Source: Tautonia plasticadhaerens (GTDB lineage Bacteria > Planctomycetota > Planctomycetia > Isosphaerales > Isosphaeraceae). Taken from it: a stretch of 64,000 nt of DNA. Below, piece after piece: positions 47,149 to 59,828 of the stretch. The notes under the pieces are model-generated. The model had not been told where the DNA came from. It searched no databases and worked only from the letters and a program-made list of their open reading frames with translations. Positions within the stretch are counted from its first letter, which is position 1, and each line of letters begins with the position of its first letter. The translations under genes and the position numbers were made by a program. The stretch is taken from the NCBI RefSeq assembly GCF_007752535.1, contig NZ_CP036426.1:3038001-3102000 (forward strand). Reading direction: 5' to 3'.

Positions 47149-48912
47149 TCAGGGCCCCGGCTCGGGGGGGGCCTCCGAGGTCCGGAAGCGGTCGAGGAAG
47201 GCGCCCCGGAGGGCCCGGTAACGGGCCAGCTCGGCCTCGCTCTCGGCCCGGGAGGGGTTGAAGCCGCTCGGGCCTTCGATCGGCGACGGATCCTCCGGCT
47301 TGGCGAGGTAGCGGTCGAGGGCGACCATCGCCCGGCGGAGCGCGTCGACCGAGGAGGAGAGGGCGTCCCGGATCTCGACCAGGTCGGGGTCGGCGGCGGG
47401 GATGCGGGCGACGGCGTCGCGCTCCTCCTCGGCCCGTGAGATCAGGCCGGAGAGTTCCGCCCGGGCGTCGGGCAGGGCCAGCTCGGAGCGGTCGACGCGG
47501 CCGATCAACGCGTCGAGCCGGAGGTTGGTCTGCTCGAATTCCAGGCGAAGGGGGTCGAGTTCCCCGGCGAACTCGTTGTAGATGCGGATCGACTCCCGGG
47601 CCAGCGCGACGCGGACCTCGGCGTTGCGGAGGACCTGGCGGTCGAGGACGACGGCCGCGACGGTGAGGGCGGCGGCGATGACCAGCCCTCCGGCGAGCTG
47701 CCGGGGCAGCCCGGCGGTCGGCCGGGGGACGGGCCAGGGGCGCTGGAGCAGCAGGCCGGCGAGGAGGCCGGAGACGAGGCCGCCGAGGTGCGCGGCGTTG
47801 TCGATGCCGGGGATCGCCAGGCCGAAGAGGGTGTTGTAGAGGACGAAGGCGACCACCCCGCCCCGCATCCGGACCAGGACCTGGGCCGGGATCGCCGTCC
47901 GGTGCGAGACGAGGAACGCCCCGAGGCCGCCGATCAGCCCGAAGATCGCCCCCGAGGCGCCGACGCTGACGACCCGGGGGTGCCACCAGGCGCTGGCCAT
48001 CGCCCCCCCCAGCCCGGCGGCGAGGTAGAGCAGGGCGAACCCGGCGTTGCCGTAGAGCCGCTCGATCAGCGGCCCGGCCCGGTACAGGACATACATGTTC
48101 AGGCCGATGTGGATCAGGCCGCCGTGCAGGAAGACCGAGGAGAGCAGCCGCCAGGTCTGGCCGTCGAGCGCGACCAGGACGCCGACGTTGCCCCCCCAGG
48201 CGATCAGGTCGGGCACGGTCGGGTCGATCGCGGAGACGCCCGAGGCGATCATCGCCAGGTAGACGAGCAAACAGGACGCGACGATCAGGTAGGTGACCAC
48301 CACCCGGGGGGTGGCGGTCATCACGTCGGCCTGGAAGGAGCGGACCTCCCCCCCGGCCCGGTGCATGGCCTGGGCCTGCCGGACGACGTGGCCGATCTCG
48401 GCCCGGGAACATCGGAGGGCGTCGGGGGTGGCGGAGCCGGCGAGGTCCCCGGAGTGGCGGGCCCGGCCGATCGTCGAGAGGACCCCGGCGAGGGCGTCGA
48501 CCGGCCCGGGGGGGTCGAAGCCCCCGAGGGGGACCTCCCGGCCGCCGCCGAGGTCGAGCGCGGGGTCGGGGGCGCCGGTCACCCGGACGGCCCCGCGCAG
48601 TTCGTCGAACGACAGGGACGAGCCCGGCCGGGCCGTTGCCCGGGCGGGCACGTCGGAGGGCCAGCAGAGGCGTCGTGAGGTGATCGCGCAGCCGGGGACG
48701 GGGCCCGTCGGGCCGGGCCGCTCGACGAGGGCCAGCAGCAATTCGTCGGGCCGGGGACGGAGGTACGAATCCAGGGCCCGCACGACGGCCTCGGCCGAGA
48801 GCCGGGGGGCGACGTAACAGTGCGGCAGCCCTTGCAGGGGCTGGCAGGCGGCCAGGGCGAAGATCTCCCAGGCGTCGACCTCGTCGGGGGATTCGGGGTC
48901 GTCGTCGTGCAC
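47149..48912 (-). CDS. rhomboid intramembrane serine protease with N-terminal extension
   Basis: 587 residues. About 200 soluble residues come first. The rhomboid core (205-395) has N272 (HIGLNMY), the nucleophile S320 (GASGAIFG) and H375 (AAHLGG), so the site is intact. The C-terminal 190 residues carry one more helix and a charged coiled region (about 420-585). Cuts membrane proteins within the bilayer. Its place 42 bases after nuoN suggests co-expression with complex I. Confidence 0.88.
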   Translation of the reverse strand: MHDDDPESPDEVDAWEIFALAACQPLQGLPHCYVAPRLSAEAVVRALDSYLRPRPDELLLALVERPGPTGPVPGCAITSRRLCWPSDVPARATARPGSSLSFDELRGAVRVTGAPDPALDLGGGREVPLGGFDPPGPVDALAGVLSTIGRARHSGDLAGSATPDALRCSRAEIGHVVRQAQAMHRAGGEVRSFQADVMTATPRVVVTYLIVASCLLVYLAMIASGVSAIDPTVPDLIAWGGNVGVLVALDGQTWRLLSSVFLHGGLIHIGLNMYVLYRAGPLIERLYGNAGFALLYLAAGLGGAMASAWWHPRVVSVGASGAIFGLIGGLGAFLVSHRTAIPAQVLVRMRGGVVAFVLYNTLFGLAIPGIDNAAHLGGLVSGLLAGLLLQRPWPVPRPTAGLPRQLAGGLVIAAALTVAAVVLDRQVLRNAEVRVALARESIRIYNEFAGELDPLRLEFEQTNLRLDALIGRVDRSELALPDARAELSGLISRAEEERDAVARIPAADPDLVEIRDALSSSVDALRRAMVALDRYLAKPEDPSPIEGPSGFNPSRAESEAELARYRALRGAFLDRFRTSEAPPEPGP

Positions 48913-48954: not shown

Positions 48955-50631
48955 TCAGGGCAGGGGGGGCGCCTCGGGCCGGCTCGGCGCCGCGGAGGCG
49001 GGGCCTGGGACCTCCGGCGGGGGCAGGGTGATGGCGAGCATCGCCCCGGCGGCGGCCCGCATCGACTCCACCAGGGGGGCCGGGTAGAGGCCGAATCCGA
49101 CCGCCACCAGCGACGCCAGGGCGATCGGCCAGGCGATCCCCCGGGGGGCGGGGGCGGTGCCAACCGCCGGGCCGCCGGGCTCGGGGCGCCTCAGGAACAT
49201 GGCGCGGAGGACCCGGGCGTAGTAGAAGGCCGAGATCACCGAGTTCACCAGGGCGACGACGACCAGCACCAGCAGGGTCGTCCGGGCGTCCGAGTCGGCG
49301 TTGAGCACTTCCATGAACATGTAGAGCTTGGCGAAGAACCCGGCCAGGGGGGGGACGCCGATCAGCGAGAGCATCAGGACGACGATGCAGGCCGCCAGGC
49401 CGGGGGACCGGTACCCGAGGCCGTCGAGGTCGTCCAGGTCGTCCCGCCCCCGGTCCCGGGCGAGCCAGGCGGCCGCGGCGAAGGCGCCGACGGTCGTCAG
49501 GCCGTAGATGACGAGGTAGAAGAGGACCGAACCGGCCGTCTCGGGGGCCGAGGGGCCGGTCCGGGTCGTCACGGCCGCCGCGAGCAGCCCGACGAGGATG
49601 TATCCGGCGTGGGCGATGGAGGAATAGGCGAGCAGCCGCTTGAGGTTCCGCTGCGCCATCGCGGCGAGGTTGCCGTAGGTCATCGTCACGGCGGCGATCG
49701 CGCCGACGATCAGCACCCAGCCGCCGTCCCCCACGCCCCCCACGGCCCCGGCCCAGGGGCCGAAGGCGTGGAGGAAGACCTTCATCAGGGCGATCACCCC
49801 GGCGATCTTCGAGCCCGAGGCGATGAAGGCGGAGACGGGGGCCGGGGCCCCCTCGTAGGTGTCGGGGGCCCACTGGTGGAAGGGGACGGCGGCGAGCTTG
49901 AAGCCGAAGCCGACGAGCATCAGCAGCACGGCGGTGGCGCCGATCACGTCCCCGGCGAGGCCGGGGGCACCGGACCCGCCGGCCCGGTCGAGCAGGACCT
50001 TGCGGACGCCGTCGAGGTAGGTGGTGCCGGTCAGGCCGTAGACGAGGCTCAGGCCGAACAGGAAGAGCGCCGAGGCGACCGAGCCGTAGACGAAGTACTT
50101 CATCCCCGCCTCGGCCGACCGCCGTTGCGACTTCTCGAAGGCGGCGAGCAGGTAGAGGCAGATGGTCATCAGCTCCAGGCTGAGGAAGAGGATGAGCAGC
50201 TCCTCGGCGGCGACCAGCAGCATCATCCCCACGGCCGACCAGAGCAGCAGGGCGAAGTAGGCCCCCCAGTGCTCGGTGAACTCCCAGGCCATCGACATGC
50301 CGACGACCATCGCCAGCAGCACGGCGATCAGGCCGTTGAAGGAGAGGGTGAGGAGGTCGGAGGCGAGGGTGCCGTAGAAGATCGTCGGGTCGGGGTCGGC
50401 ACCCACGTCCCCCGGGCCGGCGAAGGCCGGGGCGAGCAGGAGGGCGAGCACGCCGAGCGGCCCGAGCAGCGCCAGGCCGCCGAGGGCCGTCCGCCGGGCC
50501 TCCCCCGACCGGCCCCGCATCAGGCCGACGTCGACGAGCAGGACGACCAGGCCCCAGAGCGTCAGCAGGATCTCGGGGGCGAGGGACCAGAGGTACTCCG
50601 GGTCGATCGGCCGGGCGGCGGAAGGGGGCAT
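48955..50631 (-). CDS. nuoN: NADH-quinone oxidoreductase subunit N
   Basis: 558 residues, about 14 membrane helices. Antiporter-like core with the proton-channel lysine and glutamate context (LELMTICLYLLAAFEKSQRRSAEAGMKYFVYGS; SGSKIAGVIALMKV). Longer than E. coli NuoN by about 70 residues, mainly at the loops and the Pro-rich C-terminus. Proton-pumping subunit at the middle of the membrane arm. Confidence 0.94.
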   Translation of the reverse strand: MPPSAARPIDPEYLWSLAPEILLTLWGLVVLLVDVGLMRGRSGEARRTALGGLALLGPLGVLALLLAPAFAGPGDVGADPDPTIFYGTLASDLLTLSFNGLIAVLLAMVVGMSMAWEFTEHWGAYFALLLWSAVGMMLLVAAEELLILFLSLELMTICLYLLAAFEKSQRRSAEAGMKYFVYGSVASALFLFGLSLVYGLTGTTYLDGVRKVLLDRAGGSGAPGLAGDVIGATAVLLMLVGFGFKLAAVPFHQWAPDTYEGAPAPVSAFIASGSKIAGVIALMKVFLHAFGPWAGAVGGVGDGGWVLIVGAIAAVTMTYGNLAAMAQRNLKRLLAYSSIAHAGYILVGLLAAAVTTRTGPSAPETAGSVLFYLVIYGLTTVGAFAAAAWLARDRGRDDLDDLDGLGYRSPGLAACIVVLMLSLIGVPPLAGFFAKLYMFMEVLNADSDARTTLLVLVVVALVNSVISAFYYARVLRAMFLRRPEPGGPAVGTAPAPRGIAWPIALASLVAVGFGLYPAPLVESMRAAAGAMLAITLPPPEVPGPASAAPSRPEAPPLP

Positions 50632-50683: not shown

Positions 50684-51016
50684 TCAGCCGGCCATGCTGT
50701 CGAATCGGTCGACGTCGGCGGCCCGCCAGCGCCGGTAGCAGAGCAGGATCAGGGCGACCCCGACGGCGACCTCCGAGGCGGCGATGGTGATGACGAAGAT
50801 CGCCAGCATCACGCCGGGGATCGGCCCGCCCTCTGGGCCCGGGGCGTCCCCGAACCTCCAGAAGGCGACGAGGTTGATGTTGGCCGCGTTGAGCATGATC
50901 TCGATGGCCATGAGCACGGCGATCGCGTTGCGGCGGGCCAGCACGCCGAACAGGCCGATGGCGAAGCAGGCGGCGGCGAACAGCAGGAACCAGCTCAGGG
51001 GGACGTCGCCGCTCAT
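50684..51016 (-). CDS. nuoK: NADH-quinone oxidoreductase subunit K
   Basis: 110 residues, three membrane helices. Conserved glutamates in AIEIMLNAANINLVAF and in helix 3 (IAASEVAVGVALIL) are in place. The ATG overlaps the nuoJ stop by 4 bases. Confidence 0.95.
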   Translation of the reverse strand: MSGDVPLSWFLLFAAACFAIGLFGVLARRNAIAVLMAIEIMLNAANINLVAFWRFGDAPGPEGGPIPGVMLAIFVITIAASEVAVGVALILLCYRRWRAADVDRFDSMAG

Positions 51017-52755
51017 CGCGCGATCCTCTCGGCGGGGGTGTCGGTCTCGTCGGCCTCGCCCCCGATCGGGGAGGGCCCCGCCCCGTCGTCCTGCCGGGCC
51101 AGGACGATGGCGCCGACCAGGGCGGCCGTCAGCAGCAGCCCGGCGACCTCGAAGGGGACGACGAATCGGGTCATCAGCTCGTCGCCGACGGCCCGGGGCA
51201 TGTCGGCGACCGCCGAGGCGGCCACCGAGGCCGTGGTGGCCGGGACGGTGGCGGCGGCACCGGCGTCGAGGTCGAGGAAGGTGACCGGCCCGCCGGCCGG
51301 CGCCAGGACCAGCGGCATGTTCTCGGCCCCGGCCCCCAGGCGGACGGCCCGGCCGGGGGTGACCCGGGTCGACCCCCGGAGCGGAGGTCCGTCGTCGGCC
51401 CGGGGGCCGAACCCCCAGACGAGGAGCGAGGCGTCGACCGGGGCGTCTCCGGCGGCCGGACCCGGGTCGGCCTCGGCCATCGAGGCCGGGCCGACCAGGG
51501 CGGCGACCCGGCCGATGCCGGTCCCCAGCGCCACGGCGATCGGCACGCCCTCCAGATCCTCGGCGGCGAGGACCTCGGTGCCGTCGGTGGCGTCGAAGAC
51601 CCGGAGGTCCCAGCGCCCCGGCTTGCCGCTAATGAGCGAGGCGACGGCCGCCAGCGGGCCGGGGGGCAGGTCGGGGCCCAGACCCTCGGCCGGGGGCCGC
51701 GGCGGGGCCGGCGCGGAGGCCGGCATGCCGGGCCCGGCCATGCCGACCGGGGTGCCGGCGCCCTGCACGGGGCGGGGCGCCGGGGTCAGGCCCACGGCCG
51801 ACGCGGCGATCGGGCGGCCGGGGGGGGCGGCGGGGACGCTCGACGCGAACTCCCCGGTCGACGGGTCCAGGACCCGGGCGCGACGATCGGCCCCGAGGGA
51901 GACGAGCCGGCCGTCGGGGGCGAAGGCCAGGGCGCGGATCGGGCCGTCGTGGGCGGGGATCTCGACGGGCTCGGGGCCGTCCCAGAGGCGGACGATCCCG
52001 TCGGCCCCGCCGGCGGCGACGAGGCGGCCGCCCTCTTCCACCGGCCGCTCCGGCCCGACGGCCAGGGCCGAGATCCGCCCCGGACGGCCCCCGGATCGGG
52101 AGAAGGCCGGGAGGCGTCGGGCGACGTCCCAGGAGAGGACGCCGCCCCGGTCGTCGGCCGAGGCGACGATCGCGCCGTCGACGCTGAAGCCGACGGCGGT
52201 CGGCCGGCCGGCGGCCTCGTCGGTCGGGAACGAGGCGACCTGTCGGCCGACGGGCGTCCGGAGTCGGACCCGGCCGTCGAGGTCGATCGAGGCGACGAAC
52301 CGGCCGCTGGGGCTGTAGGAGAGGTCGGCCGCGCCGGGGCCGCCGACCGGGGGGTTCACCCCCCCGGGCCGGGAGACGGTGCGGGCCCACGACTGCTGGC
52401 CCGGCCGGCCTCGCTCGGCCGAGATCCCGTAGAGCAGCACCCCGAGCACCCCGAGGGCAACGACGGCGACCGGGATTTTCCGGGCCCAGTGGCCGCCGGT
52501 CGTCTCGTCCCCCTGGATGTTCCGGGTGAGCATGATCCCGAAGAGCAGGAGGATCGAGACGGCGCCGATGTAGACGAGCACCTGCATCGCCGCCAGGAAC
52601 TCGGCCTCCAGCAGGACGAACTGGGCGGCGACGGCGAAGAAGAAGGCGACCAGGAACAGCGCCGCGTGGACGAGGTTCTTCGCCAGGACCGTGCCCAGGG
52701 CCGTCAGCAGGCCGACGGCAGAGACGATCAGGAAGATCAGTTGCATGGCGCTCAC
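51013..52755 (-). CDS. nuoJ: NADH-quinone oxidoreductase subunit J with inserted WD40-type propeller
   Basis: 580 residues; ordinary NuoJ has about 170-200. Residues 1-112 are four normal helices, including the helix-3 pi-bulge segment VLVYIGAVSILLLFGIML. Residues 530-553 (FVVPFEVAGLLLTAALVGAIVLAR-type helix 5, with PFE) are also normal. Between them, about 115-520, lies a WD40-like propeller. Clear blades: LSYSPSGRFVASIDLDGRV (145-163), VGFSVDGAIVASADDRG, LVAAGGADGIVRLWDG and LAFAPDGRLVSLGADRR. A Pro/Gly-rich stretch (306-365) and three weaker blades follow. Positive residues after helix 3 (TRN, ARK) place that loop inside, so the propeller should be periplasmic. Start GTG 52755 has GGAGG 7 bases upstream; ATG 52746 is the alternative. 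The frame is uninterrupted. Confidence 0.92.
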   Translation of the reverse strand: MSAMQLIFLIVSAVGLLTALGTVLAKNLVHAALFLVAFFFAVAAQFVLLEAEFLAAMQVLVYIGAVSILLLFGIMLTRNIQGDETTGGHWARKIPVAVVALGVLGVLLYGISAERGRPGQQSWARTVSRPGGVNPPVGGPGAADLSYSPSGRFVASIDLDGRVRLRTPVGRQVASFPTDEAAGRPTAVGFSVDGAIVASADDRGGVLSWDVARRLPAFSRSGGRPGRISALAVGPERPVEEGGRLVAAGGADGIVRLWDGPEPVEIPAHDGPIRALAFAPDGRLVSLGADRRARVLDPSTGEFASSVPAAPPGRPIAASAVGLTPAPRPVQGAGTPVGMAGPGMPASAPAPPRPPAEGLGPDLPPGPLAAVASLISGKPGRWDLRVFDATDGTEVLAAEDLEGVPIAVALGTGIGRVAALVGPASMAEADPGPAAGDAPVDASLLVWGFGPRADDGPPLRGSTRVTPGRAVRLGAGAENMPLVLAPAGGPVTFLDLDAGAAATVPATTASVAASAVADMPRAVGDELMTRFVVPFEVAGLLLTAALVGAIVLARQDDGAGPSPIGGEADETDTPAERIAR

Positions 52756-52783: not shown

Positions 52784-54091
52784 TCATCGCGACGCCCCGA
52801 GGCGGCGGGGGGCGGGGGACGGGGGACGGCCGCCCCGACTCGCCCCGTCCCGCCCGACCACCGGCGCCGGGCCCCCCGCCCGGGAGAGCCGGAGCAGTCC
52901 CGAAAGCGTCAGGATCAGGGCCGGCAGCAGCACGAGCCAGCCGATCAGGGGGCGATCGCGGCGGATCGTCAGCTCCAGCCAGGCGGCCGAGGCGATGACG
53001 TTCACCAGGCTCAGCGGGATCAGCACCTTCCAGGCGAGGTTCATCAGCCGGTCGACCCGCATCCGGGGCAGGGTCGCCCGGACCCAGAAGACCAGGAAAA
53101 TGAACAGCGAGACCTTCGCCGCGAAGACGCCGATGAGCACGAGGTTGACGAGGATGACCGAGTCGATCGACCCGAGCGGCCAGGCGGTGAAGGGCAGGGT
53201 GCCGCCGCCGAGGAACAGGGCGGTCGCCAGGCAGGCGATGCCGAAGATCGCCAGGTACTCGGCCAGGAAGAAGAGGCCGAACCGCATGCCGGAATATTCG
53301 GTGTGGTAGCCGGCGATGATCTCGGACTCGGCCTCGGGCAGGTCGAAGGGGGCGCGGTTGGTCTCGGCGATGCTGGAGATCGTCAGGATGACGAAGCCGA
53401 ACAGGCCCGGCGGCGAGAACAGGAACCAGCCGTGTTCGAGCTGGGCGTTGAAGATGCCCACCAGGCTGAGGCTGCCCGCCCAGAGGATCACCGGCACCAT
53501 CGAGATCACCTGGGGGATCTCGTAGGAGACGAGCTGCGCGACGCCCCGCATCGAGCCGATCAGGGCGAACTTGTTCCGGCTCGACCAGCCGGCCAGGAAG
53601 ATGCCGAGCACCGAGAGGCTGGCCGCGGCCACCAGGTACAGCAGGCCCGAGGCGGTGTCGACCGCCGCCAGGCCGGGATACCACCGGCCCTCGGGCCCCG
53701 GCTCGCCGAACGGGACGACGTCGGGGCGGGTCGAGGTGACGCCGAAGGGGATGACCGCCAGCACCAGGAACGAGGAGACCAGCAGGATCACCGGCGCCAG
53801 GACGTGCACGGCCGCGTCGGCCGCCCGGGGGACGATGTTCTCCTTGGTCAGCAGCTTGAGCAGGTCGGCGATCGGCTGGAGCAGCCCGAAGGGGCCGACC
53901 CGGTTCGGGCCGATCCGGTCCTGGAACCGCCCGGCGAGCTTCCGCTCGGCCAGCACCACGTAGGCCACGATCAGCGGGAAGACCAGGGCGAAGACCAGCA
54001 GCCAGGAGGCCCAGTACACCCAGGGCGGGCCCGACAACTCGGCCCTAGCCTGGGCGAGCAGCAACAGGCCCGGGACGATCGGCGGATTCAC
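52784..54091 (-). CDS. nuoH: NADH-quinone oxidoreductase subunit H
   Basis: 435 residues. Quinone-site loops are conserved: ERKLAGRFQDRIGPNRVGPFGLLQPIADLLKLL and AETNRAPFDLPEAESEIIAGYHTEYSGM. About 100 residues longer than E. coli NuoH, with an extra C-terminal helix (GWLVLLPALILTLSGLL) and a Pro/Arg tail. A roughly 30-residue extracytoplasmic insert follows helix 2 (PDVVPFGEPGPEGRWYPGL). Confidence 0.95.
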   Translation of the reverse strand: MNPPIVPGLLLLAQARAELSGPPWVYWASWLLVFALVFPLIVAYVVLAERKLAGRFQDRIGPNRVGPFGLLQPIADLLKLLTKENIVPRAADAAVHVLAPVILLVSSFLVLAVIPFGVTSTRPDVVPFGEPGPEGRWYPGLAAVDTASGLLYLVAAASLSVLGIFLAGWSSRNKFALIGSMRGVAQLVSYEIPQVISMVPVILWAGSLSLVGIFNAQLEHGWFLFSPPGLFGFVILTISSIAETNRAPFDLPEAESEIIAGYHTEYSGMRFGLFFLAEYLAIFGIACLATALFLGGGTLPFTAWPLGSIDSVILVNLVLIGVFAAKVSLFIFLVFWVRATLPRMRVDRLMNLAWKVLIPLSLVNVIASAAWLELTIRRDRPLIGWLVLLPALILTLSGLLRLSRAGGPAPVVGRDGASRGGRPPSPAPRRLGASR

Positions 54092-54174: not shown

Positions 54175-54546
54175 TCAGACCCAGCGGAGGTCCCCGGCCG
54201 CCCAGGCATAGACCAGCGCCGCGGCCAGCAGGACCAGGAAGCTGACCATCTCGACGAGCACCAGCAGCCCGAAGCCGGCCTCGGCCAGGCCGAGGTAGCT
54301 GACCGCCCACGGGTAGAGGAAGACCGTCTCGATGTCGAACACGACGAACAGCAGGGCGAAGATGTAGTACTGGACGCGGAACCGGATCCAGGTCTCCCCG
54401 GTGGTCCTCACGCCGCACTCGTAGGTCTCCCCCTTCTCCCCCGACCGCTTGCTGGGCGCGATCAGGGCGACCACCACCAGCGGGGCCACCGCGAAGGCGA
54501 CCGCCGCCAGCAGCAGCAGGCCGATGAAGCCGTAGTTGGGGATCAT
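54175..54546 (-). CDS. nuoA: NADH-quinone oxidoreductase subunit A
   Basis: 123 residues, three membrane helices. The conserved loop KGETYECGVRTTGETWIRFRVQYYIFALLFVVFDIETVFLYPWA contains the quinone-site cysteine and the DIE acidic pair. Normally the first nuo gene; here it follows nuoI and a small unknown gene. Confidence 0.95.
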   Translation of the reverse strand: MIPNYGFIGLLLLAAVAFAVAPLVVVALIAPSKRSGEKGETYECGVRTTGETWIRFRVQYYIFALLFVVFDIETVFLYPWAVSYLGLAEAGFGLLVLVEMVSFLVLLAAALVYAWAAGDLRWV

Positions 54547-54607: not shown

Positions 54608-54913
54608 TCAGACCGGCCTGGGGGGAGGGCCGCCGGCGACCTCGGGGGCGGCGCCGGCGATCGCCTCGACCCGGGTATTGCCGTCGAGGGCGACCTCGGT
54701 GATCGAGCCGTCGTCCTGGCGGAGCCGGAGGGTCGGCTGGTGGCAGTAGAGGGCCTTGCCGCCCATCTCCATGCCGCCGACGGGGCGGAGGCCCTCCCGC
54801 TCGACGGTGCCGACCGTCTCGGTCATCCACCGGCGGTGGCCGACCCGGACGTACTGCACGACGCGGACCCGGGTGCCGGGCTCGTAGTTCGGCGGGGGGG
54901 GCTTCAGGAACAT
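54608..54913 (-). CDS. hypothetical beta-barrel-like protein inside nuo operon
   Basis: 101 residues from ATG 54913. Not recognised. Short alternating strands (GTRVRVVQYVRVG; TETVGTVEREG; PTLRLRQDDGSITEVALDG) suggest a small SH3/KOW- or PilZ-like barrel. A Pro-rich N-terminus, no signal peptide and no cysteine pair. Lies between nuoI and nuoA, so an accessory role for complex I is possible but unproven. Confidence 0.6.
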   Translation of the reverse strand: MFLKPPPPNYEPGTRVRVVQYVRVGHRRWMTETVGTVEREGLRPVGGMEMGGKALYCHQPTLRLRQDDGSITEVALDGNTRVEAIAGAAPEVAGGPPPRPV

Positions 54914-54964
54914 CGACGCACTCACCTCTCGGGATGGCGTGGAGATCGTAATCGGCCCGACCGG

Positions 54965-54982
54965 CCCGGGCAAGGGCCCGGG
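54965..54982 (-). other. hairpin between nuoI and the 101-aa gene
   Basis: CCCGGGC/GCCCGGG forms a 7-bp stem with a 4-base loop in the 148-base gap. No U-run. It may set the relative level of the downstream half of the operon. Confidence 0.35.
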
Positions 54983-55061: not shown

Positions 55062-55823
55062 TCAGGCCCCGGCCGGCTGGGGCTCGGAGGCGGCGGCCTT
55101 CGCCTTCTGGAGCCTTTGCTCCTTCTTCCTCGCCACCTTGGCCCGCTCGGCGGCCTCCTCGGGGCTGGACCAGGCCTCGGGGTGCGTCCGGGCGTAGTAG
55201 GCGCTGGAGACGAGGAGGTCTTCGAGCGAGTAGACGTGCGACCGGTGCCGCTCGTAGTTCGACAGCTCGAAATTCTGGTCCATCTTGATGGCGTCGAACG
55301 GGCAGTACTCGGCGCAGAGGCCGCAGTTCATGCAGACGTCCATGTCGATGTAGAACTCCTCGGGGAGCGGCACGACGGTCCCCCGGGCGCTCTTGGCCTG
55401 GACCATCCAGATGCACTGCGGCGGGCAGACCTTCGCGCAGATGTTGCAGCTGGTGCAGCGGACGTTGCCGTCCTCGTCATCGAAGATGAGCACGGGGAGG
55501 ACCCGGGAGCGTTCCCGGGTGGGCAGGCGTTCGTCGGGGTACTCGACGGTGAAGAGGCCCTCGGTGGTCGGCCCCTGGTCGACGACCGGCCCCTTGCGGT
55601 GCTCGGGGCGGTTCCACCAGAGGTCGATCGGCAGGTCGCCGCCCCCCCTCCGCTTCAGGGTCGCCCCGTGGCCGACGGTGAACGTCCGGACGAACCGCCG
55701 GAGGGTCACGAGGTGCCCGACGATCATCCCCCGGCCGTACGGCCAGATCCCCACGACCGCCGAGATCGCCGATCCGACCGGCCCGAAGAACCCGCCGCCA
55801 TTCCGCCTTGTCTCGCTCGCCAT
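55062..55823 (-). CDS. nuoI: NADH-quinone oxidoreductase subunit I
   Basis: 253 residues from ATG 55823. Two [4Fe-4S] motifs (N6a, N6b): C123, C126, C129, C133 (CTSCNICAKVC) and C164, C167, C170, C174 (CMNCGLCAEYC). N-terminal amphipathic helices precede. The C-terminal 60 residues are charged and Ala-rich (KKEQRLQKAKAAASE). It starts 13 bases after xisI. Confidence 0.95.
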   Translation of the reverse strand: MASETRRNGGGFFGPVGSAISAVVGIWPYGRGMIVGHLVTLRRFVRTFTVGHGATLKRRGGGDLPIDLWWNRPEHRKGPVVDQGPTTEGLFTVEYPDERLPTRERSRVLPVLIFDDEDGNVRCTSCNICAKVCPPQCIWMVQAKSARGTVVPLPEEFYIDMDVCMNCGLCAEYCPFDAIKMDQNFELSNYERHRSHVYSLEDLLVSSAYYARTHPEAWSSPEEAAERAKVARKKEQRLQKAKAAASEPQPAGA

Positions 55824-55836
55824 TCCAATCAACCTT

Positions 55837-56172
55837 TCACGCCACGGCGAATCCGGTGTGCTGTCGGAGTTCCGGAGACTTGAAGCCGAGGACGATGCGA
55901 TCCTTCGGGATGCCGGCATCCAGCAAATCCTGGGCGATGCCGTATTCGATGCCGTCTCGCTGGATCCAGATCTTGCCGCCGATCAGGTCGACCTGAGTGA
56001 CAATCTCGTTGATCCGACGATAGCCATCCCAACCGGAGTGGATGAGCAGATATCGGTCTCGTTCGCGGTCGAAGACGACCTCGCTCGCGACCGGCTGCCG
56101 CTCGGTCGCCGGGCTGGCGAGGTTCGACAGGACCCGCTCGATGACCTCTCGATCTCGGTTCAAGTCTTCCAT
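55837..56172 (-). CDS. xisI: XisI-like protein
   Basis: 111 residues. Matches the XisI family: VFDRERDRYLLIHSGWDGYRRI, then VDLIGGKIWIQRDGIEYGIAQDLLDAGIPKDRIVLGF, the typical end. Originally named as controlling factors for excision of the cyanobacterial fdxN element; the biochemical role is unclear. Overlaps xisH by 13 bases. A hand count of 55861-55920 gives about 62% G+C, against about 73% in 57001-57060 of nuoBCD, which suggests later acquisition. Confidence 0.9.
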   Translation of the reverse strand: MEDLNRDREVIERVLSNLASPATERQPVASEVVFDRERDRYLLIHSGWDGYRRINEIVTQVDLIGGKIWIQRDGIEYGIAQDLLDAGIPKDRIVLGFKSPELRQHTGFAVA

Positions 56173-56576
56173 CGGAGGATCGTCTCCGTGTTCGGGTCGA
56201 AGCTGATCAAGGAGATGGCGTACCTCTCGATCACGACCTGGCCGATCGGCTCGAGGAACAGGCCTTCGGCAACCTCCTGTGGGATTGCCAGATAGAGCCG
56301 GCGGCCCGGATCGACCCGTTCCAGCAGCGTGAGATAGACGCAGTATTGCCCCAGCGCCGTCTCGAAGTCTGCAAGTTCCGAGGCTCCGACAAAGCTTTTG
56401 ATCTCGACCGCAATCCGCTCCCCCTCTTTCTCGGCGCTGATCAGCCGTTCGGCCGCGAGGTCGACGAACGTATTCCGCCCACCCCATTTGATCGTGAACG
56501 GATCGTCGGTGATCGTCCAGCCGTCCTTGAGCAGGGCGTTGCGGACGGTGTCGTGGTAGAAGTCCCGCGCCGGCAT
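56160..56576 (-). CDS. xisH: XisH-like endonuclease-fold protein
   Basis: 138 residues. Family opening MPARDFYHDTVRNALLKDGWTITDDPFTI. PD-(D/E)xK-type residues are visible: VDLAAE (D) and AVEIKSF (ExK), followed by FETALGQYCVYL. The pair XisH-XisI is widespread in cyanobacteria and often mobile. Family knowledge gives a nuclease fold; activity is not proven. It begins 14 bases after the nuoBCD stop, in the same direction. Confidence 0.9.
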   Translation of the reverse strand: MPARDFYHDTVRNALLKDGWTITDDPFTIKWGGRNTFVDLAAERLISAEKEGERIAVEIKSFVGASELADFETALGQYCVYLTLLERVDPGRRLYLAIPQEVAEGLFLEPIGQVVIERYAISLISFDPNTETILRWKT

Positions 56577-56590
56577 CGCTCACGCCCCCC

Positions 56591-59296
56591 TCACCGGTCG
56601 ACCTCCCCGAGGACGATGTCCAGGCTGCCGAGGATGCCGACCACGTCGGCGACCGTGTGGCCGAGGCACATGGCCTCCAGCGCCGTGAGGTTGATGAAGC
56701 TGGGGCTGCGGACGTGGTAGCGGTAGGCGGTCGGGCCGCCGTCGGCGACGATGTAGTAGCCGAGTTCCCCCTTCGCGTTCTCGACCCGGGAGTACGCCTC
56801 GCCGGCGGGGACCTTGATCTGGTAGCTCTTCTTGCCGGGGAGGATCGGCCCCTCGGGCAGGGCGCGGAGGGCCTGCCCGAGGATCCGGACGCTCTCCCGC
56901 ATCTCCCGGAGGCGGACGTGGTAGCGGTCGTACACGTCCCCGCCGGTGGCGGTCACGACGTCGAACTCGAAGCGGTCGTAGATGGAGTAGGGGGCGGCAC
57001 GTCGGATGTCGTAGGGGACTCCCGACGCCCGGAGGACGGGGCCGGCGGTCGAGAAGGCGATCGCCTGCTCCCGGGAGAGGACGCCGATGCCCCGGGAGCG
57101 GTCCTTGAGGATCTCGTTCTCCGAAAGCAGGGCGTCCAGCTCGTCGATCTTGCGGCCGAGCCGGTCGTTGACGATCGCCGAGCAGCGGTCGACCCAGCCG
57201 GGGGGGAGGTCGAAGGCGACGCCGCCGAAGCGGAAGTAGTTGCACATCATCCGGCTGCCGGCGGCCCACTCGAAGAGGTCGAGGATCAGCTCGCGCTCCT
57301 CGATGGCGTAGAGGGCCGGGGTGAAGAAGGCGCCGAGGTCGTTCAGCAGGAAGCCGATCGACCACATGTGGCTGGCGACCCGGTTCAGCTCGGCCATGAT
57401 GACCCGGATGTGCTCGGCCCGCTCGGGGACCTTCGCGTCGTCCCCCATGAGCTGCTCGACGGCCAGGGCGTAGCCGTGGTTGTTGAGCATGGAGGTGAAG
57501 TAGTCGAGCCGGTCGGTGAACGGGAAGTTCATCAGGAACGTGTTCCGCTCGCCGATCTTCTCGTGATTGCGGTGCATGTAGCCCATGACGGGCTTCAGGC
57601 CGACCACCGTCTCGCCGTCGACCCTCAGGTTCATCCGGAAGACGCCGTGGGTCGAGGGGTGCTGGGGCCCCATGCTCAGGACGAACTGCTCGGTGTCCAG
57701 CTCCTGGACGTCGACGCCGGTGCCCCGGGGCATCTGGCCGAAGCCCTTGGCGTCGGCGGCGGGGTCGAGGCCGTCCCAGCCCCGGAAGCCCTTCGGGATC
57801 TTGACGTTCGAGCCGAAGGGGTTGAACTCCTCGGCGCGGTGGTGCTGCCCCCGGCCCTCCTCGATCCGGCTGGGGAAGACCTTCGCGGGGCCCTCGTAAT
57901 AGGGCTCCAGGAAGTCCTTGCGGAGCGGGTAGTAGGCGAAGCCTTCCCACATGAGGATGCGGGTGAGGTTCGGGTGCCCGGAGAACCGGACGCCCATCAT
58001 GTCGTAGGCCTCTCGCTCCTGGAAATCGGCCCCGGGCCAGACGCCGATCACCGAGGGGACCTCGCCCTCGCCCTCGGCCTCGGCGGCGCGGACCCGGAGC
58101 TGGATCAGGGAGCCGGGGGAGGCAGTGCTGTCGAGGTGATAGGTCAGCTCGATGCAGTCCTCGTAGTGGACGCCCTGCAGGCTGGCGAGGTAGTCGTAGC
58201 GGATCGGGTTGCGGTCCCTGAGGAAGGACGAGACGTCGAGCAGCTTCCCGGCCGGGACGAGCAGGGCGGCCCGGACGACGGTGGCGGTCCCCTCGCCGAA
58301 TTCGGAGTCGAGCCGACCGGCCAGGTCCTTCAGGCCGTCGTCGCCGAGCCAGACGAGAGTCGGGCGGCTCGGGGCGACCCTGGCCTTCCTCGACGGCCTG
58401 GCGGGGGCCTTCTTCGCGGCCGTCGCGGCGGCCCCCTCGGGGACGGCCTCCCCGCGCGACTTCGCCCGGATCAGCTCGATCTTGCTCATGGCCCGGCCCG
58501 AGGGGGCGGCGGCGGATTCGGCCTGTCCGTCGGCGGCCTCCTCCGCCTCGGGGACCTCGGGGCGGGGGGCCGGGATCAGGGCGGGGCGGGGGAGGGTGGC
58601 CTCCCGGGCCTCGGTCAGGCCGGCGGCGGTGCGCTCGGCGGTCAGCTCCAGGGTCCGGACGTCGATCAGGTCGGGGCCGAGCACCGGCACGGGCACGTCC
58701 CGGTTGGCGTCCGGGTCGTACCAGGGGGTGTTCCCCTTGCGGCCGATCGCGGGGATGTCCAGCTTCTCGCCGTCGATTTTCCGCTGCAGGGTGATCAGCC
58801 CGTGCAGCAACGCCTGGGGGGTGGGGGGGCAGCCGGGGACGTAGACGTCGACCGGGAGGTACTTGTCGATGCCGGAGACGACGTTGTACCCCTCCTTGAA
58901 CGGCCCCCCGCCGCTGGCGCAGGCCCCCATGCTGATGACGTACTTCGGCTCGGGCATCTGGTCATACAGCCGGGCGATCATCGGCATCATCGTCTTGGTG
59001 ACGGTGCCGGACACGATCATCACGTCGGCCTGCCGGGGGCTGCCCCGGAAGACCTCGGCCCCGAACCGGGCGATGTCGAACCGGGAGCTGGCCGTGCAGA
59101 TCATCTCGATGGCGCAGCAGGCCAGGCCGAACCCCAACGGCCAGAGGGCCGACCGTCGCCCCCAGTTGTAGACCGTGTCGACCATGCCGAGCAGCTTGTC
59201 CCAGCTGGTGACCAGGACGTGCCGCTCCAGCTCGGCCTGCAGGGCCGGGTCGATGGGGATGGTCCACTCGGGGCGGGCGGTCGAGGGGGTCGGCAT
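56591..59296 (-). CDS. nuoBCD: fused NADH-quinone oxidoreductase subunits B, C and D
   Basis: 901 residues in one uninterrupted frame from ATG 59296. NuoB (about 15-210) has the N2 cluster ligands C60, C61, C126 and C156. A flexible Ala/Glu/Lys-rich linker (215-310) follows, holding an in-frame Met (270, GRAMSKIEL) that could serve as an internal start for a CD product. NuoC (312-480) ends with [13 protein letters not shown]. NuoD (535-901) has the quinone-site GPQHPSTHG (543-551) and the normal end VLGEVDR. CD fusion is common; B-C-D fusion is rarer. Heads the long minus-strand unit. Confidence 0.93.
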
Positions 59297-59454
59297 GGCG
59301 GTGGCCCTGGCTCGGTCGAGGGGCGGCGGGGCCCGAGGACGCCCCGGCCGATCGGGGTCGGTCGGGGGTCGTCGGCTTCGGCGGGATGGCCCGGCGGGGC
59401 GTCCCGGCCCGCCTTCCCTCTGCGGACACGGGAGCGTCGGCCTCGGTGCGCGAA

Positions 59455-59483
59455 TTGTAGACGGCTCGCCGGGATCAAACCAG
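59455..59483 (-). promoter_or_regulatory. putative promoter of the nuo operon
   Basis: On the minus strand TACAAT (59460-59455), a 5 of 6 match to the -10 consensus, is preceded after 17 bases by the weak -35 TGGTTT (59483-59478). The leader to nuoBCD would be about 150 bases. Confidence 0.35.
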
Positions 59484-59525
59484 CCGTTCCCTTCCCGGGG
59501 AGGGCCCGCCGACGATAATAGCGTC

Positions 59526-59828
59526 ATGCGACCGCGGCCCCTGCAGGTGAGCGTCTCGGCCCTGATCCTCGTCGTGGCCGGCCTGGCCCTGAACCTCTGG
59601 CTCTTCCGCTTCGGCATGCTCGCCGGGATCCTCGGCCTGAGCCTGACCAAGCACGTCGCCATCGCCTGGCTCTGCCAGGTGCTCGGCGTCGACCGACGGC
59701 CCCGCCCCGGCCCCGGGGGGGGCCGGGACGGCATCCGAGGCGGGCCGGGCCCGACCTCCCTGGGGCCGACCGCGGTGCCCGCCCCCGGGCCCGGGTCCCG
59801 ACGCGACCCCGGACCCGCCCGGATTTAG
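59526..59828 (+). CDS. small membrane protein, 100 aa
   Basis: ATG 59526. Two hydrophobic helices (about 8-30 and 33-52: [35 protein letters not shown]), then a 45-residue Gly/Pro/Arg tail. Similar small two-helix proteins are frequent in planctomycetes; not assigned. Divergent from nuoBCD; a GATAAT box lies 8 bases before the ATG, so the transcript may be nearly leaderless. Confidence 0.55.

Follow-up and report, generated by a model that had tools for sequence, protein, structure and literature searches.

In Tautonia plasticadhaerens, NuoJ, a core membrane subunit of respiratory complex I, carries a large in-frame insertion with four WD40 blades in the loop between its fourth and fifth transmembrane helices (loop 4-5). 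Complex I keeps its core subunits highly conserved, and what is added to them normally comes as separate subunits or short tails. The gene lies within the 64,000-nucleotide stretch of DNA analysed here, which we call the window. The same architecture occurs in all four Tautonia genomes sampled, with purifying selection on the insert in the closest species pair, and the orthologues measured from other genera of the family have a short loop. With a probability of about 0.5, we suggest that the insert is a covalently attached periplasmic accessory domain with a scaffold or docking role. A domain of ~375 residues in NuoJ of all four Tautonia genomes, together with the inserts of other lineages, suggests that the periplasmic face of the proximal arm can be rebuilt while the core is kept. 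The use that complex I makes of this face thereby becomes testable, and NuoJ loop 4-5 would be a natural site for tagging or tethering the complex.

The NuoJ core and its interruption

As the first-pass annotation of this DNA had stated, nuoJ is one open frame of 580 residues. It is read from a GTG start on the minus strand. The gene and its parts are as follows:

51013..52755, minus strand: NuoJ with inserted WD40 domain, 580 aa, GTG start (open frame; PF00499 and PF00400)
52420..52755, minus strand: NuoJ helices 1-4, residues 1-112 (PF00499 profile positions 2-99; hydrophobic segments; 84-97% identity across the genus)
52336..52419, minus strand: conserved loop flank ahead of the insert, residues 113-140, AERGRPGQxSW...RPGGVNP (75-96% identity within the genus; W...RP common to most short-loop relatives)
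51841..52335, minus strand: four WD40 blades, residues 141-305 (Pfam; repeat model; AlphaFold2 pLDDT mostly 67-85; Foldseek match to WDR5, E 4e-10)
51664..51840, minus strand: Pro/Ala/Gly-rich variable linker, residues 306-364 (12% identical columns in the four species; several indels)
51211..51663, minus strand: C-terminal part of the insert, residues 365-515, possibly three degenerate blades (conserved strip 366-385; repeat and PDB searches without match)
51088..51210, minus strand: NuoJ helix 5 and flank, residues 516-556 (PF00499 profile positions 102-146; 88-100% identity in the genus)

The NuoJ/ND6 family PF00499 matches the protein at E 1.3e-35 (122.7 bits against a cut-off of 33.2), and the match is split in two, at profile positions 2-99 and 102-146, with WD40 repeats in between (PF00400, E 2.2e-13; 50.5 bits against a cut-off of 27). 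Hydropathy exceeded 1.6, our threshold for a transmembrane segment, at residues 1-29, 19-57, 46/51-80, 90-115 and 529-555, which corresponds to five helices, and both helices 1-4 and helix 5 are intact, as had been proposed. These five helices and the PF00499 match are common to this protein and to NuoJ/ND6 (Nqo10), as is the place of the gene between nuoH and nuoK, which is expected for subunit J. The NCBIfam equivalog for NuoJ was not reached (best 111.9 bits against a cut-off of 154); since a relative with a short loop, the Planctomycetota MAG RYN_438 (L034), likewise falls under this cut-off with 106 bits, the insert is not the cause of the miss.

The chance that the frame stems from misassembly, from two genes fused by a frameshift or from the decay of nuoJ is negligible. 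A sequencing artefact joining two genes had been named as a possible refutation, and it is itself refuted by the same in-frame insert in four Tautonia genomes, none of which has an internal stop. Both loop flanks are kept, the core is strongly conserved, and the T. plasticadhaerens ElP genome has been published as complete (9,395,224 bp, with a chromosome of 8.67 Mb and five plasmids, one of 0.14 Mb; PMC7716859).

Four WD40 blades and a divergent C-terminal part

Residues 141-305 clearly form four WD40 blades, according to Pfam, a repeat model and structure prediction. Pfam matched both WD40 and PF00499 in all four Tautonia species. The repeat model started from blade 4 of the four inserts and was rebuilt iteratively from the genome's other WD40 proteins. 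In the window's NuoJ it located repeats at residues 143-166, 186-211, 242-259 and 269-298 (domain E 1.4e-5 to 5.7e-12), and it recovered these four in each of the three other species as well, the third repeat being the weakest (7.8 to 13.8 bits). Moreover, at a threshold of E 0.001 a profile of the four inserts matched 536 different PDB sequences, and the 60 matches listed are WD40 or designed propeller proteins. A chance WD40 match in GC-rich sequence is ruled out by Pfam, the PDB profile search, the repeat model and the fold match. Blades 1-4 show no conspicuous binding site.

Structure prediction agreed with these assignments for the first part of the insert. AlphaFold2, run on the insert alone from a single sequence, gave a best model of mean pLDDT 48 (the other four of five reached 36-39), in which pLDDT was mostly 67-85 over residues ~147-306 (with two dips to 53-54) and below 50 nearly everywhere else. 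Foldseek matched this model to WDR5 at E 4e-10 over 168 columns, with a TM score by query of 0.34 because the rest of the insert model is unfolded, and VIA-align on Foldseek's list aligned blades 1-4 with a WD40 domain at Z 18.8 (163 residues, rmsd 3.1). A model of all 580 residues (mean pLDDT 45, pTM 0.24, with residues 179-245 also below 50) was too poor for use. Structure prediction had been put forward as a check on the propeller: blades 1-4 came out WD40-like, but the models are weak and leave the rest of the insert below 50 pLDDT.

Neither the WD40 repeat model nor a comparison of one half of the insert with the other detected a significant repeat in residues 365-515, and a profile of this part from three of the four species found nothing in the PDB better than E 1.1. 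Seven blades, sought by comparing the two halves, therefore received no supporting repeat signal. A WD40 domain is by definition a closed propeller, usually of seven blades, and four are supported here. Of the blades first described, the four clear ones stand (141-305), whereas the up to three weaker ones would have to lie in 365-515, so that a complete propeller is not supported and a count of seven is a guess. It is conceivable, though we think it rather unlikely, that the insert is not one propeller at all, with blades 1-4 making up a WD40 sheet that is open or partly formed, and an unrelated domain at residues 365-515. The lack of repeat or fold signal in 365-515 and its pLDDT below 50 speak for such an arrangement, but its length of ~150 residues and the strands predicted there at low confidence would fit three blades, and blades 5-7 could be degenerate. 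The number of blades is independent of whether the domain acts as a scaffold or docking surface or is simply tolerated.

Distribution in Tautonia and its family

PF00499 was searched in 45 genomes of the family, which is the whole order as sampled, and is present in all 45. The T. plasticadhaerens genome holds a second nuo cluster (~C1:6.199-6.211 Mb) with an ordinary NuoJ, and sorting by match length assigned the window's type of NuoJ to 35 genomes (four Tautonia and 31 others) and the second-cluster type alone to 10. WD40 repeats split the PF00499 match in all four genomes of Tautonia. Between reference positions 112 and 522 there are 388-409 residues in the four Tautonia genomes and 29-44 residues in every one of the 29 orthologues measured from other genera; the remaining two of the 31 (G001 and G035) match PF00499 unbroken. 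The edges of the loop are kept in Tautonia as in most relatives, with W...RP ahead of the insert and ADMPRAVGxE behind it, and the MAG L034 combines the same operon order with a short NuoJ loop. The part without counterpart in short-loop relatives spans residues ~141-515, or ~375 extra residues. The insertion is in frame as first described, and narrower than the 51196-52413 (residues 115-520) assigned to it then.

The conservation check suggested in the first-pass annotation thus found the insert throughout Tautonia and a short loop in other genera. Short loops in close relatives had been named as grounds for rejection, but presence of the insert in all four Tautonia genomes points to a lineage-specific gain and not to an error. 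In a tree of the core only (35 rows, loop left out), the four Tautonia rows group with support 98/95, which requires one change; 14 of the 32 inner branches have support below 80, and the sister group of Tautonia is therefore not fixed by this tree. Together with the short loop in 29 of 29 orthologues, the distribution fits a single gain of the propeller in the Tautonia ancestor. We also considered a recent copy of a WD40 gene from the same genome and found no close donor among the 150 of 192 candidates that were scored, the best other WD40 match having 39% identity over insert positions 38-211 of 415. Separately, genome G005 has a Gly/Pro-rich insert in its second-cluster NuoJ, with 163 residues between the match pieces.

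Large loop 4-5 inserts elsewhere in Planctomycetota

NuoJ loop 4-5 is an insertion hotspot for large lineage-specific domains in Planctomycetota. PF00499 is found in at least 266 of 297 genomes of the class and in 58 of the 74 genomes that make up our phylum sample. In family f3 the PF00499 match is split in 31 of the 46 genomes sampled, its pieces lying 109-265 residues apart. Four of 61 sampled genomes of family f2 have a match ending near profile position 99 and a loop of ~150-205 residues; two of the four show both pieces (187 residues apart in G302, 145 in G301). In the phylum sample, the pieces are 348 residues apart in G367 and 231 in G360, and G387 has a loop of ~175 residues. The short loop ascribed to known NuoJ/ND6 proteins therefore holds for the 29 family orthologues and for the PDB chains (162-252 aa in 18 of 19 matches), which lack the ~375 extra residues of Tautonia, but not for the phylum, where inserts reach 109-348 residues.

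These inserts occupy the same place as that of Tautonia and differ from it in that those examined lack WD40 signal. A Pfam scan of eight large-loop planctomycete NuoJ proteins returned NuoJ alone above cut-off, and among 22 rows, including two with short loops, the WD40 repeat model gave no hit better than E 0.15. An all-against-all comparison of loops yielded three groups of several rows, namely Tautonia (with L034), 13 f3 rows with second-cluster rows, and four f2 rows, while G367, G360, G387 and one short-loop row stayed ungrouped; the compared loops include flanks, so that rows are possibly joined by their flanks alone. Since the f3 rows examined fall with NuoJ of the second cluster, theirs is a separate event from that in Tautonia. 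The residues A/E/L/K/R/Q/M make up 0.41-0.55 of the 13 f3 loops and G/P 0.09-0.14, against 0.36-0.39 and 0.21-0.27 in the Tautonia loops. The loci of other planctomycete families with large loop inserts lacking WD40 signal are L059 to L062 and L065 to L080, the one in L077 reaching ~390 residues with a His/Asp-rich stretch.

Conservation and selection

Between Tautonia species, the insert is 79% identical in the closest pair (G040/G041) and 42-52% identical elsewhere. Helices 1-4 are 84-97% identical, which indicates that the NuoJ core is still selected. In the closest pair, the insert has a pN/pS of 0.32 and helices 1-4 have one of 0.05; of the differences within the insert, 51, 31 and 112 lie at first, second and third codon positions, respectively (p 1e-12). 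Wider pairs gave insert pN/pS values of 0.74-0.87, a poor estimate (insert GC3 0.80-0.96), and a codon-position bias that was weak in four pairs (p 0.002-0.04) and absent in G000/G042 (p 0.43). Invariant columns amount to 79% in helices 1-4, 32% in blades 1-4, 12% in the linker, 48% in residues 365-425 and 11% in 426-515; the best conserved stretch of the insert is the strip at 366-385, GPLxAVASLxSGxPGRWxLR. Taken together, the frame kept in four species, the codon bias and the pN/pS of the close pair suggest that the insert is translated and selected, yet far less constrained than the core.

This lower constraint bears on the main rival to an accessory role, in which a permissive loop would have taken up a module from among the many WD40 genes of the genome, and selection would act only to preserve its fold and prevent it from interfering (constructive neutral evolution). 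Such a tolerated passenger is a tentative but serious alternative. The same loop holds other domains in many planctomycetes; 70 other WD40-type matches in the genome (up to E 1, often several per gene) are possible donors; and the insert evolves much faster than the core and than the rhomboid protein encoded beside nuoN, for which identity between the window and G040/G041 is 56-59% as against 42-45% for the insert. However, all four Tautonia species have kept the insert, the close pair shows purifying selection on it, and within it the strip at 366-385 exceeds the remainder in conservation.

Predicted membrane side and role

E. coli NuoJ has five helices with its N-terminus out and its C-terminus in (PMC4604451), an arrangement that places loop 4-5 in the periplasm. 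The propeller loop of Tautonia would by homology face the same side. It had been placed there on account of an inside-positive loop after helix 3, and the side is retained although the charges agree in part only: loop 3-4 has three K+R, loop 1-2 one and loop 2-3 none, but the first flank of loop 4-5, with four K/R against one D/E, is a poor fit to the simple inside-positive rule. A sixth, marginal hydrophobic segment in the insert of the window protein (~403/404-422) scores 1.69, just above the threshold, and might be taken to mean that the domain is cytoplasmic or partly membrane-crossing and acts on the quinone or peripheral-arm side. We consider this highly improbable given the E. coli topology and the scores of the counterpart segment in the three other species (1.41, 1.35 and 1.28, against 2.16-2.26 for helix 5).

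Under the accessory-domain reading that we prefer, a WD40 beta-propeller domain would have been inserted once into loop 4-5 of a working NuoJ, in the Tautonia ancestor. The NuoJ core would fold into the proximal membrane arm as usual and carry the propeller out to the periplasmic surface near NuoA, NuoH and NuoK, if the topology is that of E. coli. There the propeller would most likely behave as an accessory subunit with a covalent link to the core: as a rigid scaffold or docking surface, it would stabilise this side of the complex or keep a periplasmic partner in place. A bolder version, which we regard as doubtful, treats loop 4-5 as a standing landing site at which each lineage builds its own periplasmic module, that of Tautonia being a complete, partner-binding WD40 propeller that ties complex I to an envelope or respiratory protein. 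If true, the insertion of a domain into a core subunit would have given these bacteria a counterpart to the supernumerary subunits that mitochondrial complex I carries on its intermembrane-space side.

Blades 1-4 resemble bacterial WD40 propellers (PkwA of Thermomonospora curvata, 5yzv; 2ymu) in sequence and predicted fold, whereas the Tautonia domain sits in a polytopic membrane subunit and its last ~150 residues are unrecognisable. Planctomycetes are reported to be enriched in WD40 proteins (PMC5587647). In E. coli, too, core subunits of complex I have lineage-specific additions, a NuoG loop of 94 residues and C-terminal tails, which stabilise the complex (PMC8357420); those extensions are on the peripheral arm, while the Tautonia insert belongs to a membrane subunit and is predicted to be periplasmic. 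Fused subunits CD and BCD are covered in a survey of prokaryotic complex I (PMC12361115), whose main text does not mention NuoJ, insertion, WD40 or planctomycet. In line with the first-pass annotation, which knew of no described case, we found no description of a WD40- or propeller-bearing NuoJ in the literature searched, which covered few subscription papers.

Operon and genome context

The other complex I genes of the window are:

48955..50631, minus strand: NuoN (PF00361; TIGR01770, E 2.7e-110)
50684..51016, minus strand: NuoK, overlapping the nuoJ stop by 4 bases (PF00420, E 7e-24)
52784..54091, minus strand: NuoH (PF00146, E 1e-111)
54175..54546, minus strand: NuoA (PF00507)
55062..55919, minus strand: NuoI, a 4Fe-4S protein (Fer4 families; assigned by its place among the nuo genes)
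56591..59734, minus strand: fused NuoB-NuoC-NuoD (PF01058, PF00329 and PF00346 in one frame; the listed start is probably too far upstream)

The operon runs nuoBCD (fused), XisH gene, nuoI, a 121-aa gene, nuoA, nuoH, nuoJ, nuoK and nuoN, and the best NCBIfam match of the fused frame is subunit B/C/D, under its cut-off. The XisH gene (PF08814) and a second frame after it, which we take to resemble XisI, occupy 55837-56576 (minus strand) between nuoI and nuoBCD; the relatives' stretches L034-L037 have no XisH match, with L036 covering the place only in part. Pfam and NCBIfam scans gave no match for the 121-aa gene between nuoA and nuoI (54608-54973, minus strand), which lies at the equivalent place in the other three Tautonia loci (72-75% identity) and in L034 (69%), and whose product is possibly an accessory protein of this complex I. 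Directly after nuoN is a rhomboid-family gene (47149-48912, minus strand), which adjoins nuoN in the three other Tautonia loci as well. The window's operon is without nuoL and nuoM, for which an antiporter-type gene pair elsewhere on the chromosome (C1:1735991-1739161) is a candidate. NuoF-type genes number three in the genome, one of them in the second nuo cluster.
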